A stretch of DNA of 64,000 nt from Thiomicrorhabdus cannonii (lineage in GTDB: Bacteria; Pseudomonadota; Gammaproteobacteria; Thiomicrospirales; Thiomicrospiraceae): assembly GCF_013391695.1 (NCBI RefSeq), contig NZ_JACBGH010000001.1:434001-498000 (forward strand), read 5' to 3'. Position numbers and translations under genes: made by a program. Below are positions 35,337 through 36,640 of this stretch, piece after piece; positions within the stretch are counted from its first letter, which is position 1, and each line of letters begins with the position of its first letter. Below the pieces are notes generated by a model, which did not search any database, was not told the DNA's origin, and saw nothing but the letters and a program-made list of their open reading frames with translations.

Positions 35337-35846
35337 CTACGTAGCAGGCGTCAGGGTGTAGAGAATCTCGGCCTCGTGCCCCTCGCTGCCAAAATCCTCG
35401 GCCTGTAAATACGGGCAGGTGGCGATGTCAAAAGCGTGGCGTTTGGCAAACGATTTAAAAAGCGCTTGTGACGCCTGATTCGAGGGGCTGATGGTCGTCA
35501 GCAACCGCTTGATTCGACCCGGCGACTGGCGCGCCACAAGGGATTCGAGCAATCTAACGGCGATTCCCTGGCCTTGGGCGTGCGGATGCACCGCGACCTG
35601 CCAGATAAACAACGCATCCGCTTGGTTCGGCGGAAAATAAGACGAGACGAAACCGACGACTTTGCCGTCCTGTTCGGCCAGCATGCAGCTTGCCGCAAAA
35701 TGGTCCGCCAGCAGAAAATAGAGGTAGCGTGAATTCAGATCAAGCGGCGGGCAGGCCTTGACCAGTTCAAAAATGGCCGCCCCATCGGCGGGTGTCGGCT
35801 GTCTGAAATAAATCGGGGTTACAGGATGTAAGGGGTGATTCTCCAT
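35337..35846 (-). CDS. ectA: L-2,4-diaminobutyrate acetyltransferase
   Basis: A 169-residue GNAT enzyme that acetylates diaminobutyrate. YFRQPTPADGAAIFELV, LDLNSRYLYFLLADHF, VAVHPHAQGQGIAVRLLES (acetyl-CoA loop) and TISPSNQASQALFKSFAKR identify EctA. The ATG lacks a Shine-Dalgarno match (CTTATTTTATGG), in contrast with the leader ORF that overlaps it, so translation may depend on coupling. It is the first main gene of ectABC-ask. Confidence 0.95.
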   Translation of the reverse strand: MENHPLHPVTPIYFRQPTPADGAAIFELVKACPPLDLNSRYLYFLLADHFAASCMLAEQDGKVVGFVSSYFPPNQADALFIWQVAVHPHAQGQGIAVRLLESLVARQSPGRIKRLLTTISPSNQASQALFKSFAKRHAFDIATCPYLQAEDFGSEGHEAEILYTLTPAT

Positions 35847-35935
35847 AAAATAAGTCTGTTTCTATTAAGGGTGAAAAATTCAACCAATCGCAAAAAACGG
35901 AAGAAAAGCTGACGGCGGATAACAGATTCGGACAT
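35819..35935 (-). CDS. Candidate 38-codon leader ORF overlapping the ectA start
   Basis: ATG at 35935 stands 8 bases after AGGAGGAGG, the best ribosome site in this operon. The frame codes for a basic, Phe/Leu/Arg-rich peptide beginning MSESVIRRQLFF and runs over the ectA ATG in another frame, stopping at 35819-35821. This layout would let leader ribosomes hand over to ectA. No homologue known to me; it may be a non-coding feature of the leader. Confidence 0.4.
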   Translation of the reverse strand: MSESVIRRQLFFRFLRLVEFFTLNRNRLILWRITPYIL

Positions 35936-36132
35936 AAGGCTGCCCTCCTCCTGCCGCAATGACAGAGGCATAAAACGATGCCCTACGATTGATTCCTCAG
36001 GACGCGTCCATTGGATTAGACTCGGCCCGGAAACCTCCGGACCTAAGGCAGAAAAGCGCCTAAACGCAAATGACAGTGTAGTGACTACAACTGGATAAAA
36101 GATAATCTTAACCTTTTGGGTTATGAATTTAT
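35847..36132 (-). ncRNA. Structured 5' leader of ectABC (riboswitch-like candidate)
   Basis: From the predicted start near 36132 the leader is about 285 nt. On the minus strand it can fold GGTCCGGA/TCCGGGCC around a GGTT loop (36024-36043), GGACGCGTCC (36000-36009) and GGCAT/ATGCC around six bases (35967-35982), before the strong AGGAGGAGG site. Sodium riboswitches (DUF1646 motif) are known to precede osmotic-stress genes, so one could be here, but I could not match a consensus. The class is therefore open. Confidence 0.35.
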
Positions 36133-36141
36133 GTGCGCTAT

Positions 36142-36169
36142 ATTATAACAAAATAATATTTAAAATCAA
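36142..36169 (-). promoter_or_regulatory. Sigma-70 promoter of ectABC with a flanking inverted repeat
   Basis: Reading leftward: TTGATT (36164-36169), 16-bp spacer, perfect TATAAT (36142-36147). An inverted repeat, TTATAACA (36143-36150) and TGTTATAA (36172-36179), brackets it, so a repressor, for instance of the MarR type EctR found near other ect operons, could bind across the promoter. No ectR gene is in the window. Confidence 0.6.
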
Positions 36170-36179
36170 CATGTTATAA

Positions 36180-36388
36180 ATTGCATCCAGCTTACTTCCG
36201 GACTTTAAGCCCTGTAACCTCTTGAAAAATGGAGCATTATCCAAACAGACAAAAACACCCAAAAACCTCAGCCGGCCAATAAAACAAGCGGTAAATTTTA
36301 TGCACCTTAACTGCGAGCCTCACGGCTAAAATTGGTAAAATGCTGGGAGTTTGATTTTAAAAAACATTCAATAGTTGGGAACTAAAAC
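36180..36388. other. Rest of the ectA-ferredoxin divergent gap
   Basis: No gene seen. A TAAAAT -10-like sequence near 36344 may serve the ferredoxin gene. The segment is AT-rich and lacks recognisable repeats. Confidence 0.4.
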
Positions 36389-36640
36389 ATGACAAAAATT
36401 GTGGTAAAAGGACAGGGAGAGTGTGAATTTGACGGTCAGTTTTCAATGCTCGAAGCGCTCGACGAAAACGGTTTTGATATGCCTTACAGCTGCCGTGGCG
36501 GAAATTGCGGTGCCTGTGCGGTGCGCCTAATTTCCGGCGAAGTCGAAGAGATTCAGAGTCCGGCTTACGAAGCGCGCAAAGGCGAGATTCTGACCTGCAG
36601 CGTGATTCCGTTGACCGATGTGGAAATCGAAATCATCTAA
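36389..36640 (+). CDS. [2Fe-2S] ferredoxin, plant type
   Basis: An 83-residue one-domain ferredoxin. The cluster cysteines are in SCRGGNCGACAVRL and in ILTCSV, giving the CX4CX2CX(n)C pattern of plant-type ferredoxins. Such small proteins resemble YfaE, which maintains the class I ribonucleotide reductase radical, but no nrd gene lies here, so the partner is unknown. Single gene; the repeat at 36660 follows its stop. Confidence 0.92.
   Translation: MTKIVVKGQGECEFDGQFSMLEALDENGFDMPYSCRGGNCGACAVRLISGEVEEIQSPAYEARKGEILTCSVIPLTDVEIEII

Follow-up and report, generated by a model that had tools for sequence, protein, structure and literature searches.

A putative AUC-started reading frame overlaid on a conserved RNA core precedes the ectoine operon of Thiomicrorhabdus cannonii and its relatives

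The ectoine operon in the 64,000-nucleotide stretch of Thiomicrorhabdus cannonii DNA analysed here (the window) is preceded by a leader that probably contains an AUC-started open reading frame, which would be coupled to ectA and share its sequence with a structured RNA. As we picture it, the ectABC-ask messenger would begin with a leader of about 290 nucleotides, folded as a structured RNA and at the same time read by ribosomes. Ribosomes would initiate at the near-cognate codon AUC, read about 94 codons across a conserved core and terminate close to the ectA AUG, at most a few codons away, and the terminating ribosomes, or the space cleared by them, would permit the start of ectA without a Shine-Dalgarno sequence. 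The peptide would be irrelevant, and the unbroken frame together with the RNA of the core would be what matters. In this scheme, we infer initiation at AUC, the dependence of ectA on ribosomes from the leader and the tuning by the core RNA.

Promoter, leader and ectoine operon

The leader and ectA are encoded on the minus strand of the window, with the following features.

36142..36169, minus strand: promoter of the sigma-70 type (TTGATT-16 nt-TATAAT, extended TG), matching the consensus at 10 of 12 positions
35337..35846, minus strand: ectA (TIGR02406)
35944..35952, minus strand: AGGAGGAGG, inside the leader reading frame, not conserved

The promoter named in a preliminary description of this DNA is present at 36169-36142, with a TG preceding its second hexamer, and its place is conserved in 24 aligned upstream regions. 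All 24 contain a -35/-10-like pattern TTGA...TTTGTTA...TA at the same position, which is kept regardless of the genes further upstream, as these differ among the regions. Promoter-like sites in the region numbered 5, as compared with 1.5 +/- 1.3 in shuffled sequences. Transcription of the leader is predicted to start at about 36135, and the distance from the promoter to the ectA ATG (35846) amounts to about 290 nucleotides, in line with the earlier estimate of about 285.

The leader is followed by ectA, ectB, ectC and an aspartate kinase gene (TIGR02406, TIGR02407, NF009806 and NF006614, respectively). No Shine-Dalgarno sequence was found at ectA, and the ribosome site of this operon is weak at ectA and strong at ectB. 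Likewise, Halomonas elongata has a weak ectA and a strong ectB ribosome site, and the accessible part of the respective study reports no translated leader (PMC5924526). A 2Fe-2S ferredoxin-like gene (named by eye) at window positions 36389-36640 on the plus strand is divergent to the ectoine operon; such a neighbour is present in the window, in the sister locus L002 and partly in L004, and other relatives have other neighbours.

According to the preliminary description, the leader ends in AGGAGGAGG. This motif is actually found at 35952-35944, about 97 nucleotides upstream of the ectA ATG, within the leader reading frame, and it is present in only 2 of 28 leaders, namely those of the window and L002. 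Thus, it is not the ribosome site of ectA. An internal reading frame following the motif (MSESVIRR...) was rejected: all differences between the window and L002 change amino acids, and the frame is absent as such elsewhere. Judged from the sequence, it represents no more than the end of the longer leader frame.

Distribution and structure of the conserved core

Within the genus, ectA was found in 23 of 32 genomes. The core of the leader was aligned at the nucleotide level from 18 genomes to yield the covariance model R1, which matches the window as follows.

35979..36093, minus strand (G000:C1:469979-470093): conserved RNA core, as matched by covariance model R1

R1 matched 20 of the 32 genomes of the genus (E up to 0.1) and 28 of 62 genomes of the order (E up to 0.01), the latter falling into 2 of 7 genera (g1 and g3). 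In the class sample 2 of 369 genomes matched, both of g1, and in the phylum sample 1 of 398, which is the window's own genome; the class and phylum searches covered samples of genomes with stricter filters than those applied within the order. Neither sample (369 and 398 genomes) contained a match outside the family, which we take to be that of Thiomicrospira, Thiomicrorhabdus and Hydrogenovibrio. Likewise, R1 did not match any of 13 regions upstream of ectB in other families of the class with the filters off, the core (a 115-nucleotide query, 35974-36088) was not found among 72,556 plasmid records, and a pattern derived from part of the core was not found in viral contigs.

Each matching genome contains a single copy, and in 28 of 28 cases it is located directly before ectA. 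In 27 of these loci, R1 is followed by a frame of 140 codons or more that begins with ATG; at the 28th (L011, genome G014) an ectA match follows whose start codon is not ATG. EctB was used to search 60 genomes of the order; a close EctB type (at least 73 percent identity) is encoded in 33 of them, and six of these 33 gave no R1 match. Weak remnants of R1 were observed in G001 (E 0.0034) and G029 (E 0.043), G037 and G040 have retained the 5′-end of the leader alone with the core gone, and G020 and G061 show no trace of R1. A TAA is located inside the EctB match of G061 (G061:C1:1626417-1627673). Elsewhere in many genomes of the order, there is another gene for an EctB-like aminotransferase, whose product is more distant (46-50 percent identity).

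The comparison of the leaders suggests the following structural elements.

36110..36122, minus strand: P0, hairpin AACC/GGUU that holds AAGG before the leader reading frame (by eye)
36074..36093, minus strand: P1, hairpin of variable sequence, 87 percent of cells paired
36056..36067, minus strand: P2, nearly invariant hairpin GCGU-UUAG-GCGC (alignment)
36024..36043, minus strand: P3, stem, both sides changed in 2 of 3 pairs
36000..36009, minus strand: P4, hairpin GGA-xxxx-UCC (alignment)
35985..35994, minus strand: P5, 5′-strand AAUCAAUCGU, 10 pairs, 92.1 percent of cells paired
35882..35891, minus strand: P5, 3′-strand GCGAUUGGUU, partner about 100 nucleotides away
35870..35885, minus strand: P8, weak hairpin sharing part of its sequence with the P5 3′-strand (folding energy against shuffles)

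By eye, P0 is shared by the group to which the window belongs and by most members of g3, and is absent from the other groups. An invariant AGUCUA and a nearly invariant UCC are located 3′ of P3. Over 28 leaders, 92.1 percent of the cells of P1 to P5 are paired, and in a control with the partners slid along the sequence, pairing falls to 30-43 percent. Moreover, changes on both sides of a pair were observed in 13 cells of P1-P5 versus 4.9 in shuffles, and none of 500 shuffles reached 13. Most of this covariation is carried by P5, in which 4 of the 10 pairs changed on both sides; in P3, a double change from A-U to G-C is found in the window and L002. The excess appears only in the longer alignment that includes P5: the core alone, in the 18-sequence alignment, showed no excess of double changes (2 cells; 124 of 500 shuffles were as good). 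Covariation among aligned relatives, which the preliminary description had proposed as a check, is hence present but modest, the independent double changes being few (A-U to G-C in the group L016-L022, U-A to C-G in L052).

The compact folding ascribed earlier to the single leader was not borne out (z -0.86; 36 of 200 shuffles were equally good), and over 22 leaders the mean folding z was only -1.44 against mononucleotide shuffles. As single-sequence folds are unremarkable, the case for an RNA structure rests on comparison. Identity to the window among 26 relatives ranges from 0.57 to 0.86 in the core, from 0.52 to 0.60 in ectA and from 0.27 to 0.47 in the P5 loop; the sister L002 reaches 0.97 in the core and 0.91 in ectA, and the EctA proteins, L002 aside, share about 42-54 percent identity with that of the window. 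The notion of an ordinary long leader, in which the pattern arose by chance or shared descent, is almost certainly wrong. It would be compatible with the unremarkable folding of single sequences; however, it accounts neither for the higher identity of the core as compared with ectA and the P5 loop nor for the frame statistics given below.

In the 23 leaders with a well-formed P5, its 3′-strand starts 42-58 nucleotides before the ATG; in L005, L009, L011, L053 and L054 this strand was not recovered at the expected place. P5 and P8 are mutually exclusive by eye, given their shared strand. P8 beats nearly all shuffles in L008, L012, L013, L016-L022, L050-L052, L056 and L057. It is weak or absent in L003, L004, L006, L007, L015, others and the window, where it amounts to -2.8 kcal/mol and 67 of 300 shuffles were as good.

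Further candidate pairings were rejected. The energy of P6, which adjoins P5 and looked promising by eye, was unconvincing (-8.4 for the own sequence versus -7.8 for other leaders and -7.5 for shuffles), an extension of P3 by UUAG/CUAA is interrupted by C-A cells, and pairing of the leader 5′-end (AAGG) with the tail adjacent to ectA gave -3.7 kcal/mol within and -4.1 kcal/mol between species. The predicted folds showed no special occlusion of the start regions. The seven leaders L016-L022 contain a conserved ACGTCT.TTGT.TTT.TCAAA in the P5 loop (columns ~270-292) that is absent from the others, and L055-L057 have lost the P1-P2 hairpins, with unrelated sequence in their place and the frame and the rest of the core kept.

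The preliminary description had also raised the possibility of an RNA switch before ectABC, with the sodium riboswitch as its model. An RNA-level element is indeed indicated by the nucleotide conservation and the covariation of P5, and the sodium riboswitch found no support in the Rfam search. At gathering score no Rfam family matched within the whole window, and at relaxed E-values the leader in the window and in 16 of the 28 relatives' loci gave chance-level matches only; these (ATPC, CAESAR, MIR1520, BASRCI337 and others) were far below gathering scores and were rejected. The Rfam covariance models, including Na+-I (DUF1646), thus yielded no credible match in the leader of the window or in the 16 relatives' loci. 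The leader shares with the Na+-I riboswitch the idea of RNA control of osmotic-stress genes and differs from it in having no match to the Na+-I covariance model; the terms "ectoine" and "ectA" are absent from the main text of the Na+-I paper (PMC9337991).

A riboswitch of a new class, responding to Na+, K+, ectoine or a precursor, appears unlikely to us. P2-P5 would then constitute the aptamer and the alternative of P5 and P8 the platform, and the reading frame would be accessory or a side effect. Such a switch would fit the long invariant unpaired run (AGUCUA and its neighbours), the single copy that always precedes ectA, the covariation of P5 and the reuse of the P5 strand by P8 in several unrelated sequence versions. 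However, the open frame, the indels by multiples of three and the position of the stop near ectA would be left unexplained; moreover, the P8 of the window is weak, the leader is not followed by an intrinsic terminator, and Rfam offers no match.

The leader reading frame and its proposed start codon

The leader, taken as untranslated in the preliminary description, is open in one frame almost throughout (36103-35819).

36101..36103, minus strand: proposed AUC start codon, ATC in 26 of 27 leaders
35819..36103, minus strand: leader reading frame, 94 codons from ATC, stop TAA

This frame, defined by GCG TTT AGG CGC, can be read without interruption into ectA, and any switch here would therefore act through, or together with, translation of the leader. 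In the window it overlaps the ectA start in another frame, and its stop ends at +28. Stops were counted in all 27 leaders with a located ATC or ATT, broken ones included, so that the count is not circular: 16 stops were found in 2430 codons of the leader frame versus 147 and 138 in the other frames, and 20 of the 27 leaders are free of stops up to 6 nucleotides before ectA in the leader frame versus 0 and 0. Within the P5 loop, with one leader taken per lineage (21 lineages), 8 stops were observed versus 37 and 26, the expectation being 35.8.

The lengths of the elements point in the same direction as the stops. The length of the P5 loop is divisible by three in 22 of 28 leaders (9 lengths between 93 and 165 occur), and that of the core is 1 modulo 3 in 25 of 28 (8 lengths); in L020, two out-of-frame length changes cancel each other. 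In 22 of the 28 leaders, referred to as intact, the stop of the leader frame ends between -6 and +28 nucleotides from the ectA ATG. The frame is broken in the remaining six (L005, L006, L009, L011, L053 and L054), with stops at -173 to -46. Five of these six are also without a recovered P5, and in L006 P5 is kept and the frame is broken.

Two loci devoid of an R1 match (L058 in G040 and L059 in G037) contain a 74-codon frame that runs from an ATT in the place of the ATC to a stop 4 nucleotides before the ectA ATG; the case is weaker than it seems, as a second frame is also open and TTG codons are located inside. An antisense gene was rejected, since the antisense frames contain 64 to 156 stops versus 2 in the sense frame; the latter figure (2 stops in 1680 codons, both being the terminal stops of L003 and L015) is partly circular, as the 22 leaders were chosen beforehand as intact. 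A frameshift fusion to EctA was rejected as well, because the frame relation of leader and ectA varies between leaders.

An open frame of this kind might also act on transcription. Ribosomes on the leader would protect the RNA from Rho, or would select P5 or P8 on stalling, and translation of the leader would thereby decide the passage of RNA polymerase to ectA. We consider this unlikely, though a serious rival. It would explain selection for an open frame without selection for a peptide as well as the long variable loop, and there is a precedent in the copper-sensing uORF CruR with its Rho-dependent termination, which, as far as described in the accessible part of that report, is among the nearest known systems (PMC9426467). 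However, the tie between the stop position and the ectA ATG is better suited to translational coupling.

Regarding the start of the frame, ATC is found at a constant position upstream of P1 in 26 of 27 leaders and ATT in the remaining one (L008); L005 could not be placed and was left out of the count. The start was sought as ATC, or else ATT, 5-16 nucleotides before P1, which entails a small chance of a lucky pick, and in L055-L057 it was placed at the first ATC past an in-frame stop. Two codons before the ATC, the frame is closed by a stop in 13 leaders (11 intact), and the start can therefore not lie further upstream in these. Between ATC and core, the 22 intact leaders contain 0 stops versus 32 and 43 in the other frames, and the unrelated sequence of L055-L057 is still open in this stretch. 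From 33 nucleotides before the ATC to the core, no in-frame ATG, GTG or TTG was found in 14 of the 22 intact leaders, including that of the window. In 8 of the 22 an in-frame TTG is present before the core, which could be the start in these leaders. The Shine-Dalgarno match before the ATC has a mean of -1.9 kcal/mol and is lacking in several groups; AAAGG or AGG is located 5-7 nucleotides before the ATC in 11 of the 22 intact leaders, including the window, and most others have little or none.

The gene infC, encoding IF3, offers a comparison within the same clade. In 25 genomes of the order (a 26th was without a locus) its start place reads GGAG...AUC in 23 and AUA in 2, as assigned by pattern, and no ATG was found there (L083-L107). 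Thus, infC seems to use AUC in 23 of the 25 genomes, and bacteria of this clade appear able to initiate translation at this codon. In E. coli infC starts at AUU, and in Streptomyces at AUC (PMC5472188).

Seven pairs of close relatives, used for both regions, gave a pN/pS of 0.92 in the leader frame and 0.19 in ectA. The leader contains 15 columns in which one residue accounts for at least 90 percent, encoded by 1.30 effective codons and in 7 of the 15 by a single codon, as compared with 55 such columns, 2.45 effective codons and none with a single codon in ectA. Moreover, nucleotides of the core are conserved even at third codon positions that are free to vary. The pN/pS of 0.92 and the near-single codons at conserved residues thus argue that the RNA, and not the peptide, is under selection. 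On this comparative evidence, selection is on RNA and translatability, and the peptide itself is not conserved as a peptide. That the leader frame encodes a small functional protein or an arrest peptide is very improbable. The conserved residues LSFAFRR, SSLIQR, SIV and RLV would speak for it; however, the pN/pS values and the codon usage stand against it, as do the searches, in which four leader peptides gave no Pfam match and the leader peptide of the window no NCBIfam match.

Proposed coupling to ectA and comparison with known systems

The preferred reading, an AUC-started leader frame coupled to ectA, has to accommodate counter-evidence, namely the broken frames in 6 of 28 leaders, the TTG in 8 of 22 intact leaders and the weak Shine-Dalgarno match before the ATC. 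The missing Shine-Dalgarno sequence of ectA was rejected as a sign of coupling, the values being -1.0 kcal/mol with and -0.9 kcal/mol without the leader (p = 0.48).

In the coupled scheme, the RNA of the core (P2 to P5, perhaps with the competing P8) would have to be unwound by the translating ribosome and may regulate ribosome flow, and the weak AUC start would represent a low, tunable gate on the operon. IF3 discriminates against codons like AUC. The operon could thus be kept low and be freed by changed initiation fidelity or by the leader RNA. We consider it conceivable, though doubtful, that initiation fidelity itself gates the ectoine operon, by way of an AUC-started leader frame that would be read via the IF3-sensitive route of infC and be overlaid with a new RNA sensor for salt or ectoine; P2-P5 with P8 would then set the number of ribosomes reaching ectA according to salt or ectoine.

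Control of the ectoine genes is usually discussed at the promoter level, and for ectABC it is known via the promoter and EctR. No RNA switch or translated leader at ectoine genes is reported in the accessible portion of the open-access literature searched, and two surveys of bacterial RNA candidates mention, in their accessible parts, neither ectA nor this bacterial group. The putative translated leader would resemble the B12 riboswitch/uORF-ppe2 system, where a structured leader is translated as well and the stop of the uORF and the start of a gene lacking a Shine-Dalgarno sequence overlap; the translation of ppe2 depends on its uORF (PMC11260477). However, the ppe2 uORF, as described in the part available, has an AUG with its own Shine-Dalgarno sequence and a known aptamer class, whereas AUC is the presumed start here and no family is matched (PMC11260477).

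A conserved non-canonical start, as proposed here, is likewise found in the IF3-repressed genes infC (AUU/AUC) and Streptomyces sigR (GTC), and infC of this clade appears to share the AUC proposed for the leader. Those starts serve functional proteins, whereas the putative start described here belongs to a leader frame with a non-conserved peptide (PMC5472188). The proX motif, an osmolyte-related riboswitch candidate of Spiribacter, also precedes an osmoprotectant gene of a saltwater bacterium; it differs in gene and host and in its translational control via a conserved ribosome site that is absent here, a comparison made by its description and the Rfam scan (PMC8632094). What appears to be new here is a coupled leader frame, with AUC as its presumed start, over conserved RNA before an osmolyte operon.

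If the doubtful reading with an overlaid salt or ectoine sensor were true, the leader would be a translated riboswitch in which the frame is kept open solely for the passage of ribosomes and not for a peptide. The translatable leader, the free peptide and the conserved RNA core underneath suggest control by ribosome traffic from a non-canonical start, and leaders called untranslated for want of ATG, GTG or TTG may be translated. Protection against salt may thus be gated in these bacteria at the start of translation and not by a known riboswitch.
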